31,277 nucleotides of DNA, taken from positions 1-31,277 of the forward strand of contig JAMOQH010000155.1 of NCBI GenBank assembly GCA_027064085.1. Direction: 5' to 3'. This DNA comes from a bacterium. Lineage in GTDB: Bacteria > UBP6 > JAFGXH01. The position numbers were made by a program, and so were the translations under genes. Shown here piece by piece: positions 2,949 through 14,928 of the stretch (position 1 is the stretch's first letter; each line of letters opens with the position of its first letter). A model generated the notes under the pieces. That model worked only from the letters and a program-made list of their open reading frames with translations. It did no database searches and had not been told where the DNA came from.

Positions 2949-4853
2949 ATGAAATATTTTTTATTACTTTTGTCTTTTTTTATATTGATTTCATGTTCAG
3001 AAACTGCAAAAGTTGGTTGTTCTGATGATAGTGATTGTGCAGATGACAGAATTTGTGAATTGGAAAGTAATTCTTGTGTTACTTGTAAAGCAACTATGTG
3101 CAACTATGATAATGCAACTGGTGTTTGTGAAGCCAATAGTGATGGGAAAATTCATTGTGCAATGGGAGATTGTAAAGAAGGTTTTTGGGATATCGATAAT
3201 GATGATAATAATGGCTGTGAGTATTCCTGTAGTGTAACGAACAATGGTGTTGAAATTTGTGATACTAAGGATAATAACTGTGACGGAAAGACAGATGAAG
3301 GCTTAGATTGTTCTTGTAACGAAAATGAAAGCAATACCTGTATTGTTGCTGGTACTTCATGTGATGGTACACAAGATTGTGTTTCAGGTTCTTGGGGAGA
3401 ATGTACAACAAATGATACGACAGTAGGGGTAGAAATTTGTGATAACCTTGATAATGACTGTAATGATGGTGTTGATGAAGATTTTAAAACTAATGGAGTT
3501 TATACAAAAGATGACCATTGTGGAGCATGTAATCAGAAATGTGAGGCAATTCATGGTACAAATTCATGTGCAACTACTGGTACTTGTAATCCCATTTGTG
3601 AAGATGGCTGGAATGATTTTGATAAAAATGGCTTAAATGGTTGTGAAACGGGATGTGCCTTATATTCATTAGAAGAAGGTAAAATAAATAAAGTTATTTT
3701 AAGCTCAAATGGTGAATATATTATAGGAGATAGTGATAGTTTTTATAAAGATGGTAAAATTTTAATTTCTTATACGAAGTCTAATGAATTTGCTAGTTCT
3801 ATTGTTGCTAAAATAATAGATAAAGATGGCTCTGTAATAAAAGATGAAGTTTTCCTTGCGTCAACCGGGGGCGGTGAGTTTTCAATTAAGCCTAAGGTTG
3901 TAATGACAGATAGTTATAATTATATTCTTTATAGAGATAACTATAAAAATGATGGTTCTAAAAAAGTTAAACTTTTGATTAAAGATAATAATTTAAATCT
4001 AGGTAATTCTTTAGAAATTACTCCAATAGGTACTTCTGCAAGTATTGCTAAAAAAAATTATGTAGCAAATAATATTTTTATGGTATGGAGTAGAAATATG
4101 CTGAAAATTGGAGGAGGAGATGTTTCTGTTATCTATTTTAGGTCTTATGATGAAGTCAATTCTCAATTAAATACAGTTTATACTGTCATTAATTCAAGTG
4201 GAGATGATTTTATCGCTCCTAAAATTACAACAGCAAATTCTTATATTGCTATAGCATATTGTGATGTCACAGGGCATGGACAATCAAATTTAAATGTCTA
4301 TTCTTTAAAGGATAACTATACTAATCCTGTAACTAAAGTAGTTGACTCTTTTACTAATACTGATTGTAATGATTTTGAAAATACTGGTAGTATTACATCA
4401 GATGGTGATTCTTTTTATGTTTCTTATGTAAATAATTTAAGTTTTAATATAAAAAAATATACTTATGGATTAGTTAATCCTGATTCTCACACAGAATATG
4501 ACATTAGATTAGATAAAAAATATAGTATTTTAGGAACAGATGATGAAAATAAAATAGTGAATAGTTCAATTAATTATAAAAATAATAATTTATTATTAGC
4601 TTATAGCAAACTTTTCATAACTAATGCGGGTAGTTTAGGATTAATTAATCATAAAAAGGTTTATCAAAGATTGAATTCAGACTTAGAACTTAAAGATACT
4701 AGAGATTTGATAAGCTCATTAGGTGTGGGCCTAAGTAGCTTTAATATGTCTATTCTTTATACTGATGATAATGAAATTATTCTTCAATATGAAAATAAAC
4801 AAGGAGTTGATAATAATATAGAAATTATAAGAAGCTCAAGTTGTGAAAATTAA
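2949..4853 (+). CDS. Cys-rich lipoprotein with MopE-type motifs
   Basis: The 634-residue protein starts with a lipoprotein signal peptide: MKYF, a hydrophobic core and lipobox LISC with the lipidated Cys at residue 16. A Cys-rich region follows to about residue 235. It contains a CSDDSDC module, two acidic MopE-like motifs (CDTKDNNCDGKTDEG and CDNLDNDCNDGVDEDF), a CGACNQKC module, and Asp/Asn-rich loops such as DIDNDDNNGC and DFDKNGLNGC. Such modules are common in myxobacterial-type surface proteins and are thought to bind Cu or Ca. The remaining ~400 residues have few Cys and are rich in beta-strand patterns, with a lone Cys near the end (SSSCEN); the fold is not recognised. It is probably anchored in the outer membrane or on the cell surface. 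The start is supported by GGAGA 6 nt before the ATG. Confidence 0.8.
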   Translation: MKYFLLLLSFFILISCSETAKVGCSDDSDCADDRICELESNSCVTCKATMCNYDNATGVCEANSDGKIHCAMGDCKEGFWDIDNDDNNGCEYSCSVTNNGVEICDTKDNNCDGKTDEGLDCSCNENESNTCIVAGTSCDGTQDCVSGSWGECTTNDTTVGVEICDNLDNDCNDGVDEDFKTNGVYTKDDHCGACNQKCEAIHGTNSCATTGTCNPICEDGWNDFDKNGLNGCETGCALYSLEEGKINKVILSSNGEYIIGDSDSFYKDGKILISYTKSNEFASSIVAKIIDKDGSVIKDEVFLASTGGGEFSIKPKVVMTDSYNYILYRDNYKNDGSKKVKLLIKDNNLNLGNSLEITPIGTSASIAKKNYVANNIFMVWSRNMLKIGGGDVSVIYFRSYDEVNSQLNTVYTVINSSGDDFIAPKITTANSYIAIAYCDVTGHGQSNLNVYSLKDNYTNPVTKVVDSFTNTDCNDFENTGSITSDGDSFYVSYVNNLSFNIKKYTYGLVNPDSHTEYDIRLDKKYSILGTDDENKIVNSSINYKNNNLLLAYSKLFITNAGSLGLINHKKVYQRLNSDLELKDTRDLISSLGVGLSSFNMSILYTDDNEIILQYENKQGVDNNIEIIRSSSCEN

Positions 4854-7659: not shown

Positions 7660-7688
7660 TTGACATAATTACTTTTAAGTAATATATT
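7660..7688 (+). promoter_or_regulatory. Sigma-70-type promoter for the methyltransferase gene
   Basis: A perfect TTGACA (7660-7665), a 17-bp spacer and TATATT (7683-7688) are present, 25 nt before the ATG. It lies in the 162-bp divergent region shared with the phosphoethanolamine transferase. Confidence 0.7.
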
Positions 7689-12961: not shown

Positions 12962-12984
12962 AACTTAACTTAATAAGTTAAGTT
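12962..12984. terminator. Perfect 10-bp inverted repeat between the zinc-ribbon gene and the division operon
   Basis: AACTTAACTT (12962-12971) and AAGTTAAGTT (12975-12984) are perfect inverted repeats with a 3-nt loop, 36 nt past the stop. The stem is AT-only apart from two C/G pairs, and the T-tract is poor (TTTCT). It may therefore be a weak terminator or an operator; it lies 28 bp upstream of the -35 box of the next promoter. Confidence 0.4.
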
Positions 12985-13011: not shown

Positions 13012-13040
13012 TTGACAAGTGAAATTCTTTCTTATATTAT
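13012..13040 (+). promoter_or_regulatory. Strong sigma-70-type promoter of the rsmH-ftsL-ftsI operon
   Basis: TTGACA (13012-13017), a 17-bp spacer and TATTAT (13035-13040) match consensus at 11 of 12 positions. Initiation would lie near 13047, just before the AGGAGG ribosome-binding site at 13054-13059. Confidence 0.72.
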
Positions 13041-13063
13041 TAATTTAATCCTTAGGAGGAATG

Positions 13064-13753
13064 ATGTTGTCATCGGAACAATTTTACCTAAAAGAAAATA
13101 CTTTGGTTTTTAATAAACTAAAAGGGTTTAATTTATTAAAAATATTGGGTAAAGATATTGTAAAGACAACTGATTTTATTAAAATAGATTTAAGATCTGT
13201 TGATGAAATTCCTAAAAATTTTTTTAAAAATTTTATTGATTTACTCTCAGATATAAATGTTAACGGGGTGCTTATGTATTTATCAAAAGAATTAGATTAT
13301 ATTATGAAAGATTATCAAGAAGAAGTAAGTTTGTCGTCATCTAATCATTCGAACAGCAATTCTTTTGTAATATTTGATTCTAGTGATAAGGTTGATATCT
13401 TATTTTTTAATGGTATTGAGAATACTTCAATTAATATGATTAAAGATAATCTTTTAAGCTATAAAAATAAAAAAGTTGTTTTTAATTTTAGTAATTTGAA
13501 TATTGAGTCATTAAGTAAATTCATACCTTCTTTTATGGGGTGGATGATGAATTCTGGTTTAAAAAAGATATCATTTTCAAAACATTATGGTGAGATTAAT
13601 GATCTTTTAGAAAAAAGAGGAATTTATTGTATGTTTAATGTATCTACTTCCATTTCTTTTCCAAAAAGAAAAAAGCAAGAGTGTAAATATGTAAATAATA
13701 AGAAAATTGATAGATTTTTAAAATTTGCTAACTATGCAGCACTACAATTTTGA
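13064..13753 (+). CDS. Unrecognised protein at the mraZ position, two STAS-like halves
   Basis: This 229-residue protein is not recognised. It is the first gene of the division operon, in the slot usually held by mraZ, but has none of the MraZ DxxxR/AbrB-like features. Two parts resemble degenerate STAS (anti-sigma antagonist-like) units. Around 25-75 there is FIKIDLRSVDEIPKNFFKNF then VNGVLMYLS. Around 135-195 there is KVVFNFSNLNIESLSKFIPS then GLKKISFS and INDLLEKRGI. Both have the strand / short helix / strand / helix order of STAS, but without a clear phospho-Ser. This is inference from pattern only. The C-terminus is basic (PKRKKQE...NNKKIDR). No membrane segment or signal is seen. AGGAGG lies directly before three successive start codons (ATG 13061, ATG 13064, TTG 13067); 13064 is preferred on spacing. 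rsmH begins 9 nt downstream. Confidence 0.7.
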   Translation: MLSSEQFYLKENTLVFNKLKGFNLLKILGKDIVKTTDFIKIDLRSVDEIPKNFFKNFIDLLSDINVNGVLMYLSKELDYIMKDYQEEVSLSSSNHSNSNSFVIFDSSDKVDILFFNGIENTSINMIKDNLLSYKNKKVVFNFSNLNIESLSKFIPSFMGWMMNSGLKKISFSKHYGEINDLLEKRGIYCMFNVSTSISFPKRKKQECKYVNNKKIDRFLKFANYAALQF

Positions 13754-13762
13754 AAGGTTTAA

Positions 13763-14647
13763 ATGGAGCATGTCTCAGTTTTAAAAAAAGAAGCGATTGA
13801 TTATCTTAATATAAAAAATGATGGAATATATTATGATGCAACTTATGGCGGCGGTGGTCATACAAAAGAGATATTAAAAAGAGATATTATAACTTTATAT
13901 GCAACAGATAAAGATTTAAATGTTAAACCTATTGAGGATAATAAATTAATTTTTGTAAAGAGTGATTTTGTAGAGTTTTTAAATAATGATAAGTACAAAG
14001 ATATTTTTTTTGATGGCATTTTAGCTGATTTCGGTGTATCAAATATGCAGATTTTAGGAGAAGATAGAGGATTTAGCTTTTTACACGATTATTATCTTGA
14101 TATGAGAATGGATCAAACTCAAGAATTAGATGCTCATTATGTTGTTAACAACTATTCTAGTGAAGAATTATTTATAATTATAAAGAAATATGGTGAAGAA
14201 AAATTTGCAAGTAGAATTGCAAATTCGATTGTTAGAAATAGGCCAATTGATACGACTTTTCAATTAGTAGATGCAGTTAAACAAGTTAAAAAATCAAATA
14301 AAAAAAATATAAATCCAGCAACTCAAACATTTCAGGCTATAAGAATTGAAGTAAATCAAGAGTTAAAAAAGATTGAAGACTTTTTAGACTTAGCTGTAAA
14401 TCGTTTAAAAAAAGGTGGAAGACTTGTAGTTATTTCATTTCATTCACTAGAAGATAGAATTGTAAAATGGAGATTTATAGAATATAAAAAGGATTGTATT
14501 TGTCCTAAAGATTTGCCAGTTTGCTCTTGTGATAAAGTTTCTTTAGGAAATATTATAACAAGAAAACCTCTTACGCCGTCAGAAGATGAATTAAAATTAA
14601 ATCCAAAATCAAGAAGTGCAAAATTGAGGGTTTTTGAGAGAATTTAA
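13763..14647 (+). CDS. rsmH: 16S rRNA (cytosine(1402)-N(4))-methyltransferase RsmH (MraW)
   Basis: The 294-residue protein is full length. It opens with MEHVSVLKKEAIDYL and the SAM-binding motif DATYGGGGHT (25-34). It also has GILADFGVS (the DLGVS motif), DRGFSF, the LDMRMD motif, TFQAIRIEVNQEL, and the late VISFHSLEDRIVK and SRSAKLRV motifs. RsmH adds the N4 methyl group to C1402 in the decoding centre of 16S rRNA, together with RsmI (not in this window). It is normally the first or second gene of the dcw cluster. AAAGG lies 5-6 nt before the ATG, and the TAA stop overlaps the ftsL ATG by 1 nt. Confidence 0.97.
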   Translation: MEHVSVLKKEAIDYLNIKNDGIYYDATYGGGGHTKEILKRDIITLYATDKDLNVKPIEDNKLIFVKSDFVEFLNNDKYKDIFFDGILADFGVSNMQILGEDRGFSFLHDYYLDMRMDQTQELDAHYVVNNYSSEELFIIIKKYGEEKFASRIANSIVRNRPIDTTFQLVDAVKQVKKSNKKNINPATQTFQAIRIEVNQELKKIEDFLDLAVNRLKKGGRLVVISFHSLEDRIVKWRFIEYKKDCICPKDLPVCSCDKVSLGNIITRKPLTPSEDELKLNPKSRSAKLRVFERI

Positions 14648-14928
14648 TGGAGCTAGATAAGAAATATTTTATAAAATCAGTATTTTCATTACTGATTTTA
14701 ACATTACTCTTTTTTTTATATTTAAACTTAAATATAAAAAAATCAAAATTGAATGAAGAATTGTCTTTAAATACAAATAATTACATTGATTTGAAAGGCG
14801 ATATCTCAAAATTAGAAATTGAATATAATAAACTAACAAGAAATAAAGTACTTGAGGAAAAAGCAGTTAAAGACTTCGAAATGAAAACACCTGAATCATC
14901 TAGTGTAATAAGGGTTAAAGATGAGTAA
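14647..14928 (+). CDS. ftsL: Cell division protein FtsL-like
   Basis: A 93-residue bitopic protein: a short cytoplasmic N-terminus (MELDKKYFIK), one membrane helix (about 11-28) and a periplasmic coiled coil (about 30-80, heptad-like Leu/Ile spacing with Lys/Glu). Sequence identity in FtsL is always low, so the call rests on size, topology and position between rsmH and ftsI. It overlaps rsmH by 1 nt and ftsI by 8 nt, implying coupled translation of the division proteins. FtsL forms the FtsQLB complex that activates FtsWI. Confidence 0.8.
   Translation: MELDKKYFIKSVFSLLILTLLFFLYLNLNIKKSKLNEELSLNTNNYIDLKGDISKLEIEYNKLTRNKVLEEKAVKDFEMKTPESSSVIRVKDE

Follow-up and report, generated by a model that had tools for sequence, protein, structure and literature searches.

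Few bacterial gene clusters have been studied as well as the dcw cluster. MraZ regulates this cluster and binds the MraZ boxes upstream of it (PMC8475190). In Neisseriaceae, the loss of mraZ accompanies lower dcw expression and new division modes (PMC9395523). A phylogenomic reconstruction gives the fullest dcw cluster as 17 genes, and no STAS gene is named among them (PMC8871954). A search of the open-licence literature for mraZ or dcw together with STAS or anti-anti-sigma returned no relevant paper.

The classical antagonists SpoIIAA and RsbV bind a kinase, and serine phosphorylation switches them off. MlaB and the RsbS/RsbR-type proteins, which likewise have STAS domains, act as binding partners or scaffolds.

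The window, which is the whole 31,277-nt stretch of DNA that was analysed, carries an rsmH-ftsL-ftsI operon headed by a short gene, referred to here as the window gene (Table 1). The second ATG of this gene is better spaced from the AGGAGG than the first. The promoter scores 11 out of 12, and no site in the window reaches 12 out of 12. The original prediction called it the strongest in the window; it is the joint strongest, for the sites at 7660 and 8170 equal its score. The 9-nt spacing that had been noted to the next gene was borne out, and that gene is, by its sequence match, certainly rsmH. The window protein matches no Pfam family even at E 10, and the NCBIfam search gave a chance-level match only (E 0.19), in agreement with the earlier statement that it contains no recognisable motif. 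Its C-terminus is basic as described, with a net charge of +7 over residues 199–230.

Table 1. Features at the head of the operon, in window coordinates.
Feature	Position	Strand	Remarks
Perfect inverted repeat, 11+1+11 bp, AACTTAACTTA/TAAGTTAAGTT	12962..12984	.	5′ of the promoter; possible operator
Sigma-70-type promoter, TTGACA-17-TATTAT	13012..13040	+	
Shine-Dalgarno AGGAGG	13054..13059	+	4-nt spacer to the ATG at 13064
Window gene	13061..13753	+	230 aa from first ATG; 229 aa from second ATG, 13064
Window protein layout			Residues 1–95, N-terminal region; then C-terminal STAS-like domain; basic tail
Predicted C-terminal STAS-like domain	13349..13669	+	Residues 97–203; from the G002 homologue and structure matches
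Basic C-terminal tail	13655..13750	+	Residues 199–230; helix predicted at 214–229
rsmH (mraW), 16S rRNA methyltransferase	13763..14647	+	PF01795, E 1.4e-100
ftsL-like small membrane protein	14647..14928	+	Position, size and established dcw gene order
ftsI, class B penicillin-binding protein with C-terminal PASTA-like segment	14921..16951	+	Motif reading and dcw gene order

Twenty-eight genomes of the phylum were examined. Three form the family of the window: its own assembly (G000), G001, and G002 from a different genus. The locus is readable in G000 and G002 only, the G001 assembly being without rsmH. No MraZ was found in any of the three, nor anywhere in the own assembly, which is 94.7% complete. 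Outside the family, mraZ immediately precedes rsmH, with no STAS gene in between, in 23 of the 25 genomes of the phylum; the two without MraZ (G023 and G025) are incomplete and miss rsmH too. Within the 55 nt that precede the start, the 23 mraZ genes have 2–4 GTGG or TGG repeats, for the most part at −41, −31 and −10, as is expected of MraZ boxes. Neither of the two readable family members has GTGG boxes (Fisher p 0.003 against the 23 mraZ genomes). The original prediction held that the window gene replaces mraZ. The gene does stand in the place of a missing mraZ; however, the event is better read as the loss of mraZ, because many other bacteria have both genes, with the STAS gene placed between mraZ and rsmH. 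Since the other families of the phylum have no STAS gene at this position, inheritance within the phylum is not simple.

The survey of rsmH-upstream genes in relatives, proposed with the original prediction, shows a homologue next to rsmH in G002. There the slot before rsmH encodes a 124-residue protein (L012:2376–2747, minus strand), which aligns to residues 100–221 of the window protein (BLASTP E 8e-6, 26% identity). The similarity between the C-terminal half of the window protein and the G002 protein has a shuffle Z of 8.9, with none of 2000 shuffles as good, and in the reverse search the window gene is the best and only match of the G002 protein in G000. When 242 genomes were searched directly, with either the protein or the two-row alignment as query, only G000 and G002 were matched; weaker matches, such as that in G044 (E 9e-4), were discarded, as they fall in an unrelated protein of 405 residues. 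The G002 homologue is a single domain that lacks the N-terminal half and the DxxxR motifs. The tail motif KKIxxFxK is common to both proteins, with charges of +7 (window) and +5 (G002). The promoter region is similar in the two genera, with TTGACAAGTG identical, and the G002 gene starts with GGGGG-catc-ATG, that is, with the same 4-nt Shine-Dalgarno spacer as the window gene. The G002 homologue overlaps rsmH by an ATGA start/stop, in place of the 9-nt gap in the window. The homologue in the same slot of another genus and the similar promoter region show that the window ORF is a real gene.

AlphaFold2 models of the window and G002 proteins were both built on one two-row alignment and are of low to moderate confidence, with a mean pLDDT of 53.8 for the former and 65.1 for the latter (core blocks about 70–81). 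Both run in the order strand-strand-helix-strand-helix(-strand)-helix. The predicted strand-strand-helix-strand-helix-strand-helix order is a likeness to SpoIIAA and RsbV (PF01740; TIGR00377), as are the best structural matches of both models, namely TM1442 (1vc1), RsbV (6m36) and SpoIIAA (1thn and 1h4y). With VIA-align, ranks 1–17 for the window model are all STAS domains (Z 4.5–6.0, about 95 residues within 97–203), comprising TM1442, TM1081, RsfB, YtvA, RsbV, RsbS, SpoIIAA and SLC26 STAS; ranks 1–12 for the G002 model are all STAS domains as well (Z 5.5–7.1), and TM1442 ranks first for both, all Z-scores being below 8. Foldseek likewise places STAS entries on top for both models, at E 0.18–0.19 and none below 0.1, and MlaB is among its matches. 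Each match is weak when taken singly; what supports the STAS reading is that two query sequences point to a single superfamily, in models that share the same two sequences. On these models, a STAS fold is very probable for the C-terminal half (about residues 97–203) of the window protein.

Sequence profiles do not reach this fold. The HMM-profile search against STAS, the other check proposed beforehand, gave no significant match: PF01740 and PF13466 leave the window protein unmatched, a generic STAS HMM scores about 2 bits, and neither the STAS nor the dcw-STAS profile (see below) matches significantly. Of the two STAS-like halves originally predicted, the fold search supports the C-terminal one only, for which the models of two homologues match STAS best at the pLDDT values given above. 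For the N-terminal half (residues 1–95), a second STAS domain finds no support in the sequence. In the model its strand/helix order is partly STAS-like, its similarity to the C-terminal half is at chance level (421 of 2000 shuffles as good), and it is missing in G002.

STAS genes beside rsmH are found in other bacteria. In 232 genomes searched for RsmH, MraZ and STAS, the first STAS genes touching rsmH came from G051 and G198, both with the order mraZ-STAS-rsmH-ftsL-ftsI. A further 80 rsmH-upstream regions were read, picked because mraZ was lacking, had no listed position or was separated from rsmH by a gap. At least 17 genomes, from 15 unrelated families, have a STAS gene of about 100–150 residues immediately before rsmH (L186 in G051, L187 in G198, L191–L203, L221 and L228); the count is a lower bound because not all of the 221 rsmH loci were read. 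These genes are called dcw-STAS here, and no description or name for them was found in the databases and open-licence papers searched. mraZ occurs in the stretch read for 16 of the 17 genomes and was located in G084 by genome search, which makes 17 of 17. The chance of such a count of mraZ-STAS-rsmH is below 1e-11, even with 19 STAS genes in every genome. None of 30 rsmH-upstream regions without mraZ has a STAS gene. Among the named genomes scanned that have RsmH, mostly Bacillota, mraZ lies beside rsmH in 19 of 20 checked and a STAS gene in none.

All 17 dcw-STAS proteins match PF01740 and 15 match TIGR00377; they have no more specific Pfam or NCBIfam name. The column of SpoIIAA Ser58 holds a serine in 0 of 17 dcw-STAS proteins, whereas it does so in 23 of 23 other STAS proteins (Fisher 1e-11); the latter are 20 paralogues from the sampled genomes, two proteins from the own genome and SpoIIAA, the paralogues being taken from high-scoring Pfam matches with a resulting bias to canonical STAS. 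The residues at this phospho-site in dcw-STAS are Tyr, Phe, Val, Glu, Gly or His, with Tyr or Phe in 13 of 17 (INYRG, INYMG, HIHYQ and similar). In a tree of all columns, the 17 dcw-STAS proteins fall on one side of a branch with support of 97/95; when the columns around the phospho-site are left out, they fall into more than one group (3 changes). The dcw-STAS genes may have a single origin.

Small ORFs of 75–143 residues without STAS similarity were also seen between mraZ and rsmH, at L208 (G094), L209 (G100), L188 (G113) and L189 (G115), and further ones at L232 (G160), L234 (G182) and L236 (G217). The slot between mraZ and rsmH may hold other unrecognised genes.

The window gene resembles the dcw-STAS genes in lying immediately before rsmH, on the same strand, as its G002 homologue does, and in encoding a small predicted STAS domain. 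It differs in that mraZ, present in 17 of 17 dcw-STAS genomes, is missing from its family, and in that the window protein has diverged far from theirs and has double the length. The hhalign comparison of the window/G002 pair with the 17 dcw-STAS proteins is colinear over the whole domain (90 columns, P 0.037), somewhat better than that with the canonical STAS proteins of the own genome (32 columns, P 0.069); neither is significant. Grouping the window protein with dcw-STAS in the tree gives an AU test p of 0.415, at which it is neither rejected nor shown; by path, the rows closest to the window protein are those of other STAS proteins. From position and fold, we lean slightly towards equating the window gene with the dcw-STAS of other bacteria. 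In a broader sense, it probably either is a dcw-STAS or stands in for one in a lineage without mraZ. The protein likely works like a dcw-STAS, and may be one by descent.

The similarity to dcw-STAS could also be convergent, a STAS-like gene having been recruited to the slot by the window family alone after mraZ was lost. The lack of a STAS gene at rsmH in the other families of the phylum would agree with such a recruitment, as would the tree, which does not join the window protein to dcw-STAS. Yet the slot is identical to that in 15 other families and the profile comparison, colinear throughout, favours dcw-STAS over the STAS proteins of the own genome, so that we regard convergence as the less probable course, though one to be reckoned with. 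The proposal that the protein is an anti-sigma or partner-switch relative fares worse. It would make the protein an anti-sigma-factor antagonist of the SpoIIAA/RsbV type, through which a partner-switching kinase and a sigma factor would be linked to the division operon. The STAS-like fold predicted for the C-terminal half fits an antagonist, and the own genome encodes HATPase_c_2 anti-sigma kinases and SpoIIE-type phosphatases. However, these kinases adjoin STAS genes of their own, with DSSG or DSAT sites (C156 and C51), and no HATPase_c_2 kinase gene lies in the window. Unlike SpoIIAA and RsbV, the window protein has no significant sequence match, belongs to a division operon, and has an extra N-terminal half and a basic tail. 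It contains no DSSG; NIESLS could put a serine at or beside the phospho-site, where the alignment is ambiguous by a few residues. Three things speak against a partner switch: the dcw-STAS proteins have lost the serine, no kinase gene adjoins the window gene, and the genome has canonical pairs at other loci. We consider such an antagonist unlikely.

A strongly diverged MraZ in two halves, kept in its old slot, would agree with the place of the window gene as the first of the cluster and directly before rsmH, and the two halves and the basic region recall MraZ as well. The window protein, however, differs from MraZ (PF02381) in sequence and in predicted fold, which has alpha/beta elements in STAS order. 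It has no PF02381 match, and an HMM of the 23 phylum MraZ proteins scores it below zero bits, against 237 for a member. With the G002 homologue a single domain of 124 residues without DxxxR, and with the MraZ-box-like GTGG repeats gone too, a diverged MraZ was rejected as barely credible. Little more can be said for a membrane-tethered division factor, composed of a STAS/MinC-N-like domain and a C-terminal amphipathic targeting helix. The conserved, positively charged tail could serve such a factor, and the MinC N-terminal domain is among the weaker structural matches (3ghf, Z 3.6). But MinC ranks far below the STAS proteins, and the tail is not unusually amphipathic, since 374 of 5000 shuffles have a moment as high, which makes this a very improbable reading.

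The best explanation remains a diverged STAS protein in the dcw-STAS slot of a lineage that lost mraZ, made together with RsmH and acting as an adaptor; taken as a whole, it stands at even chances in our judgement. Elsewhere, many unrelated bacteria have the order mraZ-STAS-rsmH-ftsL-ftsI. The window family has lost mraZ together with the GTGG operator boxes, and the STAS gene would thereby have become the first of the operon, under a near-consensus promoter. The close coupling to rsmH, by the 9-nt gap or by the ATGA overlap in the other genus, would cause the STAS protein to be made together with RsmH. The likeliest role of the protein would be that of an adaptor that binds other proteins and is not switched, as classical anti-anti-sigma factors are, by serine phosphorylation. 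Since MraZ is missing where this gene is kept, the essential partner of its product is probably RsmH, some other protein of the operon or an unknown regulator rather than MraZ, and the tight coupling to rsmH favours a partner within the operon. A non-phosphorylated adaptor of RsmH or of another operon product is thus our tentative suggestion for the role, with the odds somewhat against it. MlaB and the RsbS/RsbR-type proteins differ from the window protein in operon and partners, and are not closely related to it in sequence. A bolder and rather doubtful extension would be that the cluster has a widespread, undescribed gene between mraZ and rsmH, for a STAS protein lacking the phospho-serine, and that this protein took over dcw control in the window lineage, where MraZ and its operators were lost.

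A STAS subfamily linked to rsmH in at least 15 families, with the phospho-site lost, suggests that a regulator or adaptor acting at the protein level, on RsmH or on division, has been overlooked. The window family amounts to a natural experiment: it has lost MraZ and its boxes but kept the STAS gene, so that the functions of the two neighbours become separable. A gene that has drawn little notice, in a cluster studied very thoroughly, thereby becomes testable.

A perfect 11-bp inverted repeat, AAGTACTTATT/AATAAGTACTT, was found just 5′ of the G002 promoter (L012:2807–2837); its sequence differs from that of the window repeat (Table 1). The inverted repeats in both genera leave room for possible operators of a DNA-binding regulator that replaced MraZ.

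Canonical pairs of STAS and HATPase_c_2 genes were located in all three family genomes (G000 C156:19199–19902 and C51:14085–14345; G001 C12; G002 C82). In addition, G000 C122:34513–36015 holds a STAS-STAS-kinase-SpoIIE-type array that resembles a stressosome or partner-switch module. G002 carries a second full-length rsmH of a very different type on a short contig (C9:760–4695, L037), with a Sua5-like gene upstream and neither STAS nor mraZ adjoining; this contig is probably contamination or a foreign contig in the bin. Elsewhere in the window, positions 2949–4853 encode a predicted lipoprotein of 634 residues with cysteine-rich repeats of the type that large secreted proteins have in delta-proteobacteria-like lineages.
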